From: Alphaproteobacteria bacterium | Lineage (GTDB): Bacteria; Pseudomonadota; Alphaproteobacteria; Caulobacterales; Maricaulaceae | DNA: 64,000 bases | Direction of reading: 5' to 3' | NCBI GenBank assembly: GCA_018222865.1 | Contig: JAAEZM010000005.1 | Coordinates: 1 to 64,000, forward strand | Notes under the pieces: model-generated | Seen by the model: the letters and a program-made list of their open reading frames with translations, nothing else | What the model was told of the DNA's origin: nothing | Databases searched by the model: none | Program-made: the position numbers and the translations under genes | Part shown: in pieces, positions 7,772-25,546 of the stretch | Numbering within the stretch: position 1 is the first letter of the stretch | How the letters are laid out: every line of letters starts with the position of its first letter

Positions 7772-9148
7772 TTACTCTGTAACAGGCTCACCCGTCGGGC
7801 TTGCGTCGTCCTTATCCGTTGAAGGCTCAGGGTCACGCTTGCTCGGACGTTCTGCTTCATCATCGGACTGAGAACGATCTTCATTGCGCTTGCGGCCAAA
7901 GGACAGCATCCAGGCACCCAGTCCGATGCTCATGACGATCAGGCCTGCAATCCAACCCAGTCCGGGAACAGCGCCCAACACAACCAGGGCAATCATGACG
8001 ACCAGAAGCGATAGAGCGCGCATGGCCAGCCCCAAACCCTCATTGGGACGCGAACGGTTGAAGATAATATCGCCTACAGCCACGCCACCAAAGATGAAGG
8101 ATAGGAAAAGCATGACCGGATAGAGGAAGATCATCAGCGGGATGAGCGGAATTCCAATGACTGTCACAGCCAGGAGCATCACAAGAACCGCGATTACGAT
8201 CGGAGACAGGGCAAAGGTTACAAAGCCCAAGAAGCCCGAACTTACCGGTCGTTCACGGAAAGCGCTTGCGATATTGCCTACGCTGGATGGCGCAATCAGG
8301 ATGATGAAGAGGCCAAGTAGAAAAGCACTGCCTACGAACATTCCGCCGAAGAATTCAAACGGCGCACCGATGAACTTCCAAGGCCCTTCGATATGGATGT
8401 CCAGGTCTTCCCAGTCTTCCGCACCGAAATTATAGGCCTCATAGCTATAGCTTAGCGTGCCCAGGGACGCGCCGGCATCAACTTCCGGCTCACGCGGGCC
8501 ACGCACAATGATTTCACCGGGGATGACAGCACTCGCGAGGATTCTGACACGCTCAGCCGTGATTTCGACATCACCATTGAAGGTGCCTGCGAGCGTGATC
8601 GTTTCAGCCTCAGCATCCAGCGGCCCGTGAGCCGTACCAAGAAAATCAATCTCGCCGCCAACAATCTCAATTCGACCGTAAAACTCACTGGCTTGAGATA
8701 TTAGAACTGCGCCACCACCAATATGGGCGTCCTCGCGTACGACAACGTCCAATTCGACGCTGCCGCCTGCCGTATTAAGTTCGCCGCCGATCGTGCCGAA
8801 CAGCTCGACATCGCCGGCTGCGACATTGGCGTCTTCACCGATATCCGCGCGGATCGTGATTGCCCCGCCGGCCATATCGACTTCGCCATCAACGCGGCCT
8901 GACACATTCGCCTCGCCGCCGAAGAACTCGATATCGCCAGAGATATTCGCGTCGATATTGGCTTCGCCAGCAATGCCGGAGACCGATCCTTGAATATCAC
9001 CGCGCACGGTGAGTTCGCCGCCGAGGAATGCGACGTCGTCAGAGCTTCCATTGACGGTGACTTCGCCACCAATCATCTGCGCGTGAGAAGCGCCGGTTAG
9101 CAGTGCAACGGCCAGCCCCCCGGCCATTATCATCTTGTTCATGCTCAT
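7772..9148 (-). CDS. Exported bactofilin-like beta-helix protein with C-terminal membrane domain
   Basis: 458 residues. A signal peptide (to about residue 23, SHAQ) leads into roughly 200 residues of repeating GGE/GGA units spaced about 17 residues apart (FLGGELTVRGDI, FFGGEANVSGRV), as in right-handed beta-helices of bactofilin-type polymer-forming proteins. This is followed by four or so hydrophobic helices between about residues 265 and 420, and a charged tail (RKRNEDRSQSDDEAE). The layout implies a periplasmic helix anchored in the inner membrane. The first ATG has a GGGAG site 9 bases upstream. It lies 49 bases after the related lipoprotein gene on the same strand, so they are likely one operon. 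Function unknown. Confidence 0.75.
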   Translation of the reverse strand: MSMNKMIMAGGLAVALLTGASHAQMIGGEVTVNGSSDDVAFLGGELTVRGDIQGSVSGIAGEANIDANISGDIEFFGGEANVSGRVDGEVDMAGGAITIRADIGEDANVAAGDVELFGTIGGELNTAGGSVELDVVVREDAHIGGGAVLISQASEFYGRIEIVGGEIDFLGTAHGPLDAEAETITLAGTFNGDVEITAERVRILASAVIPGEIIVRGPREPEVDAGASLGTLSYSYEAYNFGAEDWEDLDIHIEGPWKFIGAPFEFFGGMFVGSAFLLGLFIILIAPSSVGNIASAFRERPVSSGFLGFVTFALSPIVIAVLVMLLAVTVIGIPLIPLMIFLYPVMLFLSFIFGGVAVGDIIFNRSRPNEGLGLAMRALSLLVVMIALVVLGAVPGLGWIAGLIVMSIGLGAWMLSFGRKRNEDRSQSDDEAERPSKRDPEPSTDKDDASPTGEPVTE

Positions 9149-9197
9149 TTACCTAGCTCCCTGCGCCCCCCGGCGTTCAGGTTGGTTCAAACTCAAC

Positions 9198-9965
9198 TCA
9201 GTCGATATACCGATCACAATCGCGGCCATCGCGCGGATTAAAACGCAGGTCGGCAACGCGTGCGGCGCTATTCACCTGAGGTGCTTCTTCCGCCCAGACC
9301 TCAAGAACGCCGTTGATCTGTGCATCCGGTCCAACGATGAGTGTGCGCGTACAAACTTCGCCGCCATCCGCGACATAGCCATTGAGCTCGATCCGACCGT
9401 GATCGGGTTCATCGCGGCGGCTACGACGGATCTCGTCTGCTGCAATCAATTTAATGCGGTTATTGACGCGTCCAGCGACATACATGTCATCGGCCTGCGC
9501 AACGAGGCGTCCGTCAATCTCGGACTCAATATGCATGCTAGCCGCAGCAAAGGAGCCCTCTCCTTCGACGCGTCCACGCACCATCAACTCTCCGGCCGCT
9601 ATTGATAATTCATCTCCCGCTTCGCCGTCCCAGGTGACATCACCGCCAGCAATGGAGGCCTCACCTTCAACGCGTCCTGTGAAATCGACATCTCCAGCGG
9701 CAATGGAAAGATCACCCTGAATGGTGATTTCATCCATTTCGACATCGCCGCTGATAAGGCTGACATCGCCACCCACGAAGCCGCGTAAATTCGTATCGCC
9801 GCCAATACGGCTATAATCGCCATTGCGGTCGAGAACGATGAAACCATCTTGCCGGTGACCGTCAAAATGCATTTTCGCGGCGTCATCATCAGCCACAACA
9901 ATCACGCATCCTGATGTCATAAGAGCAGCGGTAACAACGCCCGCCGCGAGCCATGCCCTTTGCAT
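9198..9965 (-). CDS. Bactofilin-like beta-helix lipoprotein (first copy)
   Basis: 255 residues beginning MQRAWLAAGVVTAALMTSGC, a lipoprotein signal with the lipobox cysteine at residue 20. The mature protein is a series of beta-helix turns (GGDVSLISGDVEM, IAGGDVTWDGEAG) resembling the exported helix domain of the downstream gene. An in-frame extension to 10028 is rejected because ATG 9965 has a clean AGGAG site. The protein is predicted to sit in a membrane by its lipid and to face the periplasm. It heads a two-gene unit and has three operator-like repeats upstream. Function unknown. Confidence 0.75.
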   Translation of the reverse strand: MQRAWLAAGVVTAALMTSGCVIVVADDDAAKMHFDGHRQDGFIVLDRNGDYSRIGGDTNLRGFVGGDVSLISGDVEMDEITIQGDLSIAAGDVDFTGRVEGEASIAGGDVTWDGEAGDELSIAAGELMVRGRVEGEGSFAAASMHIESEIDGRLVAQADDMYVAGRVNNRIKLIAADEIRRSRRDEPDHGRIELNGYVADGGEVCTRTLIVGPDAQINGVLEVWAEEAPQVNSAARVADLRFNPRDGRDCDRYID

Positions 9966-10043
9966 GTATATCTCCTGTAAGAGGTGGCTGAACGGTTCTG
10001 ATCGCCACCTATTCATGCTCCCCAGCATGATTCAGACCATACA

Positions 10044-10108
10044 TTATCGAAAAACGATATCAAGCGATTTTTTGTTTATCGATAAATATTTCTTGTTTAC
10101 CGAGAAAT
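10044..10108 (-). promoter_or_regulatory. Three operator-like repeats upstream of the lipoprotein gene
   Basis: Three copies of a TTATCGA-like element begin at 10044, 10076 and 10097: TTATCGAAAAA, TTATCGATAAA and TTACCGAGAAA. The first sits in a 5-base inverted repeat (TATCG-N5-CGATA, 10045-10059). The second is the core of a perfect 12-base palindrome (TTTATCGATAAA, 10075-10086). The spacings of 32 and 21 bases are about three and two helical turns, which would put the sites on one face of the DNA. They lie between the lipoprotein gene and the divergent acyl-ACP synthetase gene, so either or both could be controlled. Confidence 0.5.
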
Positions 10109-10227
10109 GCTTTGTGCTGGCACCGTAATTTGATGAGCGATATATCTTCCCTAAGCGGCAAGGCAGGGTAATATCTTCGTCACAAAACAACGGGCGCCGG
10201 AGGGCAAGGCGCGCCTGGGAGGACTAT

Positions 10228-11907
10228 ATGGCTGATGGCCTTACGGACGCTTCCTCTGCCAAACCGGCAGAAGAGGCTAATAATGCTGAAATGATCCCGG
10301 CGAGTATTGAGGATGTGATTCACACAGGCGCAGACTTCAATCTCAACCGGATCCGCAAATCCGTCTTTGAAGCATTGCTGCAATCTCGAAATCGATATGG
10401 TGGCAAGAAGATTGCTGTGGTCGATGCGGATGGGCGAGAGCTATCATACAATGATCTGATCAAGGCGTCCTTTGCGCTGGGCCATGCGCTCAAGCAGGGC
10501 ACCCAGCCTGGAGATTCGGTCGGCATTCTCTTGCCAACCGGCGTCGGCGCGATCATCGCCTTCTTCGCGATCTCCGCCTATGGCCGCGTCCCAGCCATGC
10601 TGAACTTCACGGCCGGCGACAAGGCGTTGAAATCCGCCTGCAAGGCCTCCAAGACCAAGCGTATCGTGACGGCACACCGCTTCATTGAGCTGGGTGAGCT
10701 TGACGCGCTTGAGAGCGAGCTGTCCAAGGACCATGAGCTCATCTATCTTGAGGATGTGCGCGAGAACTTGTCGACAATGGACAAGGTCGCAGCGGCCGGC
10801 GGCATGGTTGCGCCCTGGGCCGTTCGGGCCTGGCCGTCACCAGACGCTCCCGCGGTCTATCTGTTCACATCCGGCACGGAGGGCGAACCGAAAGGCGTTG
10901 TCCTCAGCCATGCCAACCTTCTCGCCAATGTCGAACAGGTCCGTGACCATGTTCCTATCTACGACAATGACGTCGTATTTAACCCATTGCCGACTTTCCA
11001 CTGTTTCGGTCTGACCGGTGGTGTGCTTGTGCCGCTGGGGCTGGGCGTGAAATCCGTCTGTCACCCTACCCCGCTGCAAGCGAAGACCATTGTGAAGCGG
11101 ATTGCTGAGACTGAAGCGACTATTCTTTTCGCGACGGACACTTTCCTCAATCAATACGCCCGCGCTGCTGACGGAGCAGACCTTCAAAGCCTGCGTATGG
11201 CCGTTTGCGGAGCCGAACGGGTCAAGGATGAAACGCGCGCCTCACTGCAAAAGCGCTTCGATCTGGATATTGTCGAGGGCTATGGCCTGACAGAAGCTGC
11301 GCCTGTCCTCGCGGTCAATCAACCTGAAAACAACAAGCCCGGAACAGTTGGCCAATTAATGCCAGGCTGTTCTGCCAAACTGGTTCCGGTACCCGGTATT
11401 GAGGAAGGCGGTCAGCTCCACATCAAGGGGCCGAACATTATGAAGGGCTATATCCGCTCTACTGCCCCGCTTGAGCTGGAGGCTCCTGAAGAGGGCTGGC
11501 ATGATACGGGCGACATCGTCACCATCGACAATGAAGGTTTTTTGCGGATCCGGGGCCGCGTCAAGCGATTTGCAAAGCTCGGCGGCGAAATGGTCTCCCT
11601 CGCCGTTGTAGAGAATTGTGCAACAGCGCTTTGGACCGATGACATGCACGCCGCTGCTACCCTGCCGGACAAGCGCAAAGGCGAGCAAATCATCCTGCTC
11701 ACCACCTATAAAAAAGCGGAACGGGTGGATTTCGTCTCTTTCGCCAAGAACCATGGCGTGACTGAATTGGCGATTCCGAAAAAGATTATCGTTGTCGATG
11801 AGATCCCTGTTCTGGGAACCGGTAAAACCAATTATGGCCAGGTCCAGCGGATGGCGGAGGAAGCCATGGCGGTTTCCAGCGCACCCGCTCCTGCGCCTGC
11901 CGAATAG
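10228..11907 (+). CDS. AMP-binding acyl-ACP/acyl-CoA synthetase (Aas-like)
   Basis: A 559-residue adenylate-forming enzyme that should activate a fatty acid with ATP and pass it to ACP or CoA. The P-loop motif is YLFTSGTEGEPKGV, with EGYGLTE and GWHDTGD motifs downstream. Several blocks (AMLNFTAG, then a YLEDVRENLSTMDKV stretch) resemble the synthetase half of E. coli Aas, the enzyme that reacylates lysophospholipid. The acyltransferase half of Aas is absent. The first 40 residues are low-complexity and the end is Ala/Pro-rich. It is monocistronic: a strong terminator follows. The start has a GGGAGGAC site. Confidence 0.85.
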   Translation: MADGLTDASSAKPAEEANNAEMIPASIEDVIHTGADFNLNRIRKSVFEALLQSRNRYGGKKIAVVDADGRELSYNDLIKASFALGHALKQGTQPGDSVGILLPTGVGAIIAFFAISAYGRVPAMLNFTAGDKALKSACKASKTKRIVTAHRFIELGELDALESELSKDHELIYLEDVRENLSTMDKVAAAGGMVAPWAVRAWPSPDAPAVYLFTSGTEGEPKGVVLSHANLLANVEQVRDHVPIYDNDVVFNPLPTFHCFGLTGGVLVPLGLGVKSVCHPTPLQAKTIVKRIAETEATILFATDTFLNQYARAADGADLQSLRMAVCGAERVKDETRASLQKRFDLDIVEGYGLTEAAPVLAVNQPENNKPGTVGQLMPGCSAKLVPVPGIEEGGQLHIKGPNIMKGYIRSTAPLELEAPEEGWHDTGDIVTIDNEGFLRIRGRVKRFAKLGGEMVSLAVVENCATALWTDDMHAAATLPDKRKGEQIILLTTYKKAERVDFVSFAKNHGVTELAIPKKIIVVDEIPVLGTGKTNYGQVQRMAEEAMAVSSAPAPAPAE

Positions 11908-11930
11908 GATCAAGCAATCCATGAAGCAGA

Positions 11931-11960
11931 AAAGCCCGGCGATCGACGCCGGGCTTTTTT
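11931..11960 (+). terminator. Rho-independent terminator
   Basis: A 10-base stem, AAAGCCCGGC paired with GCCGGGCTTT (11931-11940 and 11948-11957), ends in a run of T to 11960. It begins 24 bases after the acyl-ACP synthetase stop. The opposite strand has only four A/T on the far side, so it would be a weaker terminator for the convergent lipoprotein gene that ends at 11980. Confidence 0.9.
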
Positions 11961-11979
11961 ATTGAGCTGTCTTTGCGAT

Positions 11980-12666
11980 TTAGCGGTCGAAGTCATCCTG
12001 GCAACTACGACCGTCGAGTGCTTCATACCGGGCATTATCCGGCAGACCAGAAGGTCGGGTTTGGGAGATGAACTCAAACGCGCCATCGAACTCGGCGGAC
12101 CGTTCAATATCGATATAGGTTGCGCAGAAAATCCCACCATCGCGGAAACGACCGGAGAGAATTGCGCGCCCGCTGCCATCATCGGATCCTGCACCAAAGA
12201 CAGCAATCGGGCCGTGAAAATCGCCGTCGAGCATCATGCGCGCACCGTCGATTTCAGTTGGCCCGTGAACTTCGCCGTCTACGGTGAGACGCGCGCCCGC
12301 CATTTCCAGACGCCCTTCAATAATCGCATTGATTTCCGTTGTTGCAGCAGCAATTTCAGCGTCACCGCCAACACGGCCACGGAAGCGAACGCGGGCCCCT
12401 TCCGCCAGAAGGTCCTCGCCGACATCCACATGACCGCGAACGCTCGCGCCAGCCATGTGAAGATCGCCGCCAACCGTCCCGTCGACCCCAACCATCATCC
12501 CTTCAAAGGAAGCATCACCGGGGACATTGACATTACGTGAAGCGACCAAGCCCTGCCCCTCGACGGAGCGTTGATCGCCCGAACCATAGCTGGAATACGT
12601 ACAGGCGGACAAAGCGAGAGCGGAAGCACCGAAAATGGCGGCCCGGAAAAGCATTGCATGCATCAT
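11980..12666 (-). CDS. Bactofilin-like beta-helix lipoprotein (second copy)
   Basis: 228 residues starting MMHAMLFRAAIFGASALALS and then AC, giving a lipobox cysteine at residue 22. The mature part again consists of short glycine-rich beta-helix turns (VGGDLHMAGASV, DGARMMLDGDFHG) and ends in a conserved-looking tail with two cysteines (FCATYIDIE, GRSCQDDF). The same tail pattern (VCTRTLIVG, GRDCDRYID) occurs in the first lipoprotein, so these are paralogues. AGGAG precedes the ATG. Upstream lie two TGCC-N5-GGCA repeats. Function unknown; most likely an envelope structural or stress-related protein. Confidence 0.75.
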   Translation of the reverse strand: MMHAMLFRAAIFGASALALSACTYSSYGSGDQRSVEGQGLVASRNVNVPGDASFEGMMVGVDGTVGGDLHMAGASVRGHVDVGEDLLAEGARVRFRGRVGGDAEIAAATTEINAIIEGRLEMAGARLTVDGEVHGPTEIDGARMMLDGDFHGPIAVFGAGSDDGSGRAILSGRFRDGGIFCATYIDIERSAEFDGAFEFISQTRPSGLPDNARYEALDGRSCQDDFDR

Positions 12667-12757: not shown

Positions 12758-13057
12758 TTACTCGGACCGAATTGTGATCGGACCGACAGGCAGGATCCGT
12801 CCGAATACCTTGAGCAAAAGAGCGCTAAATACCGAGCCGATACCGGTCACGATAAATCCGAGGATGCCCGATATGAGCAATCCAACGATGAAACCGCTCA
12901 CGCCGTGAATATAGGTGCCGTTCCAGGAGACGGTATCCATGCCAGAAAACGCGAGCACACCGGCCAACACACCCCATAAAACGATAAAGGCAAAGGACGG
13001 AATGAAGAGGATCTGGAACAATGATCCAAAGCTGATTTGTCCGACACGAACTTCCAT
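12758..13057 (-). CDS. Small two-helix membrane protein of unknown function
   Basis: 99 residues with a first hydrophobic span at about 14-38 (LFIPSFAFIVLWGVLAGVLAF) and a second at about 52-82 (GFIVGLLISGILGFIV). The start MEVRVGQISFGSLFQILF is conserved-looking, and the C-terminal tail is short (GRILPVGPITIRSE). I do not recognise the family with certainty. The gene lies 30 bases after the lpdA stop on the same strand. The ribosome site is poor (GTGGGG), and an inverted repeat occupies most of the gap, so expression may depend on translation through lpdA. Confidence 0.65.
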   Translation of the reverse strand: MEVRVGQISFGSLFQILFIPSFAFIVLWGVLAGVLAFSGMDTVSWNGTYIHGVSGFIVGLLISGILGFIVTGIGSVFSALLLKVFGRILPVGPITIRSE

Positions 13058-24907: not shown

Positions 24908-25546
24908 CTAGTCGCTGGAAACCACCCGCACCGAGCCGCCCATGCTGGAGCGAAGATCGCGGCGCTCAGGATTGCCATAGACCCGCAGGCTTGCCCCCAT
25001 GCTCGCACGCCCTTCAATACTGCTGGTCGCTGTGACACGCATTGAGGAGCCGGTCGAGCCCCCCGCTTCAACCATCTGACACTCCAGGGCACGCGCATCA
25101 ACGACTGAACCCGTATTGGTCTCCAGGTCCATTTCACCGCATGCACCCGACAGCTCCAATTCTGCACCGGTTGATACGCGGACGCGGAGCTGATCCGCAT
25201 CAAGTCCGGAAATTTCAGCAATCGCGCCGCGACGCACTTCAATGTCATCTACCTGTGCGCCGGTGACATAAACGCGCGCATCAATGCGCTCATTGCTGCC
25301 AAACCAGTTAGTGTCCCGGCTGACGGTCAGCTCGCCATTGTGGACATCAATCTCAATCAGCTCGAAATCGCTGGCATCGCCTTCGATTCGCACACCGGGT
25401 TCTCCACCGAGCTCGACATAAACCCGCATCCCGTTCTGGATATCGAGCGAATCAAACGCGCTCACATCAATATTCTGCTCGTCCTGAGCGCTGGCTGCCG
25501 CGGAGACTGCGAGTGCGATCGCAGTGCTGGTCATGAATTTGAGCAT
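24908..25546 (-). CDS. DUF2807 (head GIN domain) exported protein
   Basis: 212 residues. A signal peptide MLKFMTSTAIALAVSAAASA leads to a beta-rich repetitive domain (ISGLDADQLRVRVSTGAELELSG, split here at VRRGAIAEISG) of the DUF2807 'auto-transporter adhesin, head GIN' type: a short beta-helix in which each turn alternates hydrophobic residues with Gly/Ser. The start at 25546 has a strong GGAGGG. The fold is similar in style to the bactofilin-like proteins at 8-12 kb. Function unknown. Confidence 0.75.
   Translation of the reverse strand: MLKFMTSTAIALAVSAAASAQDEQNIDVSAFDSLDIQNGMRVYVELGGEPGVRIEGDASDFELIEIDVHNGELTVSRDTNWFGSNERIDARVYVTGAQVDDIEVRRGAIAEISGLDADQLRVRVSTGAELELSGACGEMDLETNTGSVVDARALECQMVEAGGSTGSSMRVTATSSIEGRASMGASLRVYGNPERRDLRSSMGGSVRVVSSD

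Follow-up and report, generated by a model that had tools for sequence, protein, structure and literature searches.

What might three exported, bactofilin-like proteins encoded within 5 kb of one another be doing in a bacterial envelope? The genes in question, here called A, B and C, lie on the minus strand between positions 7,772 and 12,666 of a 64,000-nucleotide stretch (the window) from an alphaproteobacterium of the family Maricaulaceae (assembly GCA_018222865.1, contig JAAEZM010000005.1) whose closest named relatives are Maricaulis. A preliminary description of this DNA had presented them as beta-helical proteins related to bactofilin, one anchored in the membrane and two being lipoproteins with a common cysteine-containing tail, and had proposed that they form a polymer or scaffold shaping or protecting the envelope. 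The anatomy given there is borne out by the analysis below. As to function, our leading reading, held tentatively and with a little less than even confidence, is that the trio are divergent members of the bactofilin kin, exported from the cytoplasm, which form a scaffold in the envelope.

Repeat, fold and kinship of the three proteins

Gene A (7772..9148, minus strand) is an open reading frame of 458 amino acids comprising a signal peptide, a bactofilin-like beta-solenoid, a linker, about five transmembrane helices and an acidic tail. Gene B (9198..9965, minus strand) is an open reading frame for a predicted solenoid lipoprotein of 255 amino acids, and gene C (11980..12666, minus strand) one for a predicted lipoprotein of 228 amino acids, whose solenoid is assigned by homology to B. 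The short turns noted earlier in all three proteins prove to be a regular repeat: the autocorrelation of residue classes has its maximum at a lag of 17 residues (0.46 for A, 0.38 for B and 0.41 for C), and this value was reached by 0 of 500 shuffles for each protein, with the best lag among 5-39 used in every shuffle. The membrane part of A has no significant repeat, its best lag being equalled or exceeded in 238 of 500 shuffles.

The AlphaFold models of A and B are beta-solenoids. For A (mean predicted local distance difference test, pLDDT, 83.5; predicted template modelling score, pTM, 0.60) the model has solenoid strands at residues 29-236 and helices at 263-432, joined by a linker of low confidence at about 243-265. 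Together with the 17-residue lag and the alignment to a solved bactofilin, it delimits the solenoid of A to residues 28-236 (8441..9067, minus strand). The model of B is a confident solenoid (mean pLDDT 85.3, pTM 0.79), most blocks of its body having a pLDDT of 93-98 and two of 70-79. Two solved bactofilins, BacA (2n3d) and that of Thermus (6rib), represent the family (PF04519) to which the trio is likened, and 98 of the 101 residues of 6rib_A align both to A (Z 9.0, root-mean-square deviation, rmsd, 1.9) and to B (Z 8.8, rmsd 2.1). The solenoid of A, with 209 residues, is about twice as long as the bactofilin family model with 98. GlmU- and LpxD-type solenoids are left-handed and fit the two models only at rmsd 10.5-12, so the solenoids of A and B are probably right-handed.

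The three proteins are also related to one another in sequence. Profile comparison with hhalign gives E-values of 6e-38 for A and B, 8.7e-27 for A and C and 3.8e-45 for B and C, the last over nearly the full length with a probability of 100 and thus including the cysteine tail; that they are paralogues is fairly well supported by these profiles. Resemblance to bactofilin is likewise fairly well supported at the level of the family. At E<=0.1, the Pfam Bactofilin family is found in 16 of 21 A rows, 10 of 16 B rows and 11 of 13 C rows, and in 15 of 19 proteins in the set of window A and 18 distant A-type proteins, while window A itself has no Pfam match under E 0.1. Among the relatives that pass the curated cut-off of PF04519 are A-type frames of two genomes (G024, 41.2 bits; G036, 33.4 bits). 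The top sequence match among solved structures is a bactofilin for the A profile (E 0.0034) and for the B profile (E 0.0026).

The source genome also has a canonical bactofilin outside the window (L001, G000:C6:150504-150788). The sequence MFNKGNK occurs in its frame, in agreement with M1, F2, K4 and K7, the residues published as directing BacA to the membrane. The A profile matches this protein with a probability of 92% (E 7e-7), while the match of the B/C profile (48%, over 13 columns) is not convincing.

A further protein in the window had been set beside the trio for its similar style. This exported DUF2807 protein (24908-25546, minus strand; PF10988, E 4.6e-30) does not belong with them: its hhalign probability against the B/C profile is 1%, and its best lag is equalled or exceeded in 49 of 500 shuffles. 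DUF2807 and DUF4097 (toastrack) proteins are like the trio in being turn-rich beta proteins, and this local one is exported; unlike kin, it has no significant match to the B/C profile, and A, B and C of the window have no match to PF10988 (DUF2807, head GIN domain). Other DUF2807 matches in the source genome lie at G000:C4:5990-6703.

Export signals and membrane attachment

The export signals announced for all three proteins can be read by eye and by pattern. In A the signal peptide (9080..9148, minus strand, residues 1-23) reads MSMNKMIMAGGLAVALLTGASHA, with the predicted cut after SHA; almost every row of the family alignment has Gln directly after this site. The transmembrane domain (7889..8362, minus strand, residues 263-420) is defined by helices in the model and by Lys and Arg (K/R) in alternate loops only. 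Over 21 A rows the mean number of K/R is 3.62 in loop 285-302, 1.90 in loop 360-374 and 2.43 in loop 417-432, against 0.00 in each of the hairpins 327-333 and 390-398. With five helices, a number taken from the model where a crude window count gives six, this distribution of charge implies a solenoid on the outside and a tail on the inside, and the solenoid of A is predicted to be periplasmic.

B and C have lipoboxes (LMTSGC and LALSAC, respectively, read by eye). The lipobox cysteine of B, C20 (9906..9908, minus strand), has Val at +2 and is invariant in alignment A3, two rows of which (L092:6769 and L093:6236) are C-type by the tree described below; that of C, C22 (12601..12603, minus strand), has Thr at +2 and is kept in most, not all, rows of alignment A4. 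The start of B at 9965 is more likely than the one at 10028, because AGGAG precedes that ATG and the lipobox cysteine then becomes residue 20. Putative ribosome sites also precede C (GAGGAG) and A (GGGAG). Across the named loci and the window, the lipobox pattern is present in 27 of 30 B/C-type frames, and none of these 27 has Asp at +2; as the pattern also matches 4 of 22 A frames, it is weak evidence if taken alone. No lipobox is present in two frames (L088 and L091:7037), whose products may be soluble, and the lipobox of L090 is doubtful. By the E. coli +2 rule for lipoprotein sorting, which concerns Asp at this position, B and C are probably outer-membrane lipoproteins.

The tail common to B and C carries a cysteine pair found in 29 of the same 30 frames. 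In B it consists of C205 (9351..9353, minus strand) and C250 (9216..9218, minus strand), both invariant in A3; in C, of C181 (12124..12126, minus strand), invariant in A4, and C222 (12001..12003, minus strand), nearly so. We propose, from this conservation, disulfide bonds C205-C250 and C181-C222. The exception is a partial frame of 160 amino acids (L087:7479-7958), also without a lipobox. This B-like frame adjoins A and is perhaps a decayed or misread copy.

These features set the trio apart from known relatives. Typical bactofilins are attached to the membrane from the inside by a short N-terminal peptide (PMC12448750). A classical bactofilin is cytoplasmic, with an N-terminal targeting peptide and no signal peptide, whereas all three proteins here have a signal peptide or a lipobox, to which A adds a C-terminal multi-helix domain and B and C a cysteine pair. 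Closer to A in its integral membrane anchoring are bactofilins with N-terminal transmembrane helices, such as Proteus CcmA (PMC12448750). The CcmA-type anchor is N-terminal, whereas that of A is C-terminal and follows a signal peptide, so the solenoid of A is predicted to be on the opposite side of the membrane. A likeness in cell placement is offered by the archaeal halofilins A and B of Haloferax (PMC12186497), which like the trio are several bactofilin-related proteins at different places in the cell.

Distribution, descent and gene neighbourhood

In a sample of 79 genomes of the family, the queries for A and for B each match 32 genomes and the query for C matches 31. The B and C queries cross-match A, and the match places were therefore read one by one. 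Of the 32 A-positive genomes, 28 have a separate second solenoid frame, which lies close to A on one contig or, in G064, partly on a different one, and the A-negative genomes of this sample have no B or C match. In several genomes of one genus (g8: G007, G024 and G074) an extra solenoid paralogue lies between C and B.

Beyond the family, the A profile matches 95 of 289 genomes of the class, 32 of them (the source genome included) at E<1e-20; the weaker matches are mostly short frames of bactofilin size. At the level of the phylum a broad A profile matches 30 of 299 genomes, with a strong match in another class (G381, 3.9e-81). Judged by these profiles, proteins of the A type are common across the class. 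As far as sequence searches reach, lipoprotein forms turned up in no family but that of the window: in 32 other matching genomes of the class (190 searched) and 22 matching genomes of other families of the order (249 searched), no match to the B/C profile extends past position 193 of 235 into the cysteine tail, with a capped number of candidates scored per genome, so that rare copies may escape. Of 99 genomes sampled from the family, 96 have a PF04519 match over the cut-off, and these include genera without A; the exported set is thus additional to the canonical bactofilin.

We built a tree from the solenoid parts of 68 sequences (FastTree, midpoint root), with the proviso that repeats make such trees rough. 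B and C together form a clade (0.998), as do the A proteins of the family (0.73), and the two groups together stand apart from distant A (0.85). The C-type (15 rows) is a clade (0.983) inside the B/C clade. B is not a single clade, even with the two C-type rows of A3 set aside: the Maricaulis B (7 rows) and the B of other genera (7 rows; L083-L086, L091, L093 and L094) each form one. The second of these joins C (0.884) and not Maricaulis B, so what is called B in other genera may be a different gene. A simple reading of this tree is that A is older, and that an A-like protein lost its membrane domain, gained a lipobox and a cysteine pair, and was then duplicated; this order would depend on the midpoint root.

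The large length changes in A amount to one turn of 17 residues, in 14 of 20 rows (alignment A2 excludes L097, where A is cut off, and A5 probably includes a few N-termini that extend too far). In B they amount to about two turns, 35 residues, in 7 of 15 rows, with two C-type rows lacking 17. In C there is a gain of 19 residues in 1 of 12 rows and one of 8 residues, not a whole turn, in 3 of 12.

The order lpd, C, ligase, B, A, peptidase, DUF6702 is kept in all 6 named Maricaulis loci, each of which has the M1 peptidase and the DUF6702-like gene after A, and lpd is close to A in all 20 named loci that can be judged (L097 is too short). In the window an AMP-binding ligase (10228-11907, plus strand) lies between C and B, and B begins a run on one strand that continues with A, an M1-type peptidase and a small gene. 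What we call ligase, M1-type peptidase, lpd and 'DUF6702' here are presumed identities, read from the sequences by eye. Two Maricaulis genomes have a second M1-type peptidase after the DUF6702-like gene (L077:13078-15516 and L079:13083-15521). A frame of 99 amino acids with hydrophobic stretches (12758-13057, minus strand) lies between lpd and C and may be species-specific, since only about 100 bp separate the two genes in L077. Scans for promoter-like sites (4, against 5.5 in shuffles, standard deviation 2.1) and terminator-like sites (9, against 7.9, standard deviation 3.2) gave no signal.

These and other gene links differ between genera. Outside the family, the neighbours of 18 located A genes are mixed, Pfam assigning Guanylate_cyc to 3 and MurJ to 2 of 36 proteins; this count takes the nearest gene on either side (36 of 72 listed neighbours) from a simple gene picker, which did not recover A in L120 and L122. 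We considered reading a function from the gene context and rejected it on account of this variation. At four loci in other genomes of the class (L108, L110, L112 and L114) a cyclase-like frame stands directly before the A-type gene with an overlap of one base, those of the last three being 40-81% identical to that of L108. At L109 and L125 a frame that reads as MurJ-like lies directly downstream of the A-type gene.

A proposed scaffold in the envelope and its alternatives

In the scaffold that we propose, A would be cut by signal peptidase I and its solenoid would stand in the periplasm, the five or so C-terminal helices holding the protein in the inner membrane. B and C, presumably derived from an A-like ancestor by loss of the membrane domain and acquisition of the lipobox and a C-terminal disulfide, would be sorted to the outer membrane with their solenoids in the periplasm, so that a bactofilin-like rod at the inner membrane would have partner rods at the outer one. 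Bactofilin units join end to end (PMC12448750), and by analogy the exported rods may have kept this joining, the first turn of A meeting the last turn of B or C. What we infer from this arrangement is that the three rods touch, that they polymerise and that they act in the envelope mechanically or as organisers; that it gives shape or protection would be a guess.

Several results weigh against this scaffold. Window A has no match to PF04519, window B (26.6-26.7 bits) and C (22.9 bits) stay below its curated cut-off of 27.9 bits, and the C profile finds no solved structure by sequence under E 0.65. In fold, other solenoids outscore bactofilin (4i84 with 16.4 for B; 4rt6 and 3p4g with 17.2 for A) and Foldseek with the A and B models returns no E-value under 0.1; because longer solenoids score higher and no such E-value is reached, the fold match to bactofilin is generic. 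The exported parts of A, B and C are all acidic. A occurs alone in 4 of the 32 A-positive genomes (G027, G034, G044 and G072), and 18 distant A loci have no further solenoid match among the frames chosen by the simple gene picker; A therefore needs neither B nor C. No constant gene partner was found beyond the family. The proposed C-terminal disulfide may cap the very rod end at which joining would occur. Conservation of the ends as a sign of contact was apparent in A at first count and was gone once gaps were excluded, the ends then having 0.55 and 0.62 against 0.40-0.66 for most of the rod. This failed check slightly lowers the odds of the scaffold and of the bridge considered below, and favours monomers.

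Solenoids that are capped and monomeric, serving as envelope sensors, ligand binders or spacers like the toastrack-type stress proteins and forming no scaffold, are a serious if less probable explanation. The cysteine pair suggests a capped C-terminal end, the ends of A show no conservation peak, weak Pfam links exist to DUF2807 (4 of 13 C rows, best 0.002) and DUF4097 (1 of 16 B rows), and four distant loci have the one-base overlap of the A-type gene with a cyclase-like gene. Against monomers of this kind stand the Bactofilin match of most members, the bactofilin that heads the solved-structure matches of the A and B profiles, and the lack of a profile relationship to the local DUF2807 protein.

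B and C could instead be carried on to the cell surface as adhesive or protective lipoproteins. Exported acidic solenoids would fit such a role, and secreted or surface proteins are among the neighbours in fold with known structures. The one point against it is the linkage with a paralogue in the inner membrane, which suggests the periplasm; we consider a surface location unlikely.

More unlikely still is that the trio forms a split rod crossing the periplasm, a solenoid of the same polarity from outer to inner membrane. With its C-terminal end fixed in the inner membrane, A would have its N-terminal turn free; the N-termini of B and C would be fixed in the outer membrane, leaving the C-terminal turn free; B or C stacked on A would consequently give one continuous solenoid. 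A has about 12 turns, B 11-12 and C 11. Solenoids rise by about 0.48 nm per turn, which puts the estimated span, before linkers, near 11 nm for A and B and near 16-17 nm for all three. If such a bridge were true, length changes by whole turns would tune its span.

That the three are ordinary cytoplasmic bactofilins with uncleaved N-terminal membrane anchors is very improbable: about 3.2% of bactofilins carry N-terminal transmembrane helices (PMC12448750), but the lipobox and cysteine pair of B and C, the charge pattern of A and the separate canonical bactofilin with MFNKGNK in this genome all speak against it.

We found no description of exported bactofilins or of these genes in the titles and abstract openings of the open-licence PMC papers that our searches matched. 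An exported form that is common and has a membrane domain at its C-terminus, together with a lineage of outer-membrane lipoproteins, would extend the bactofilin fold to the periplasm, and automatic labels such as 'polymer-forming cytoskeletal' can mislead on location. Whereas bactofilins are treated as cytoplasmic cytoskeleton, the proteins of this family would make it possible to test whether a scaffold of this kind exists in the periplasm.

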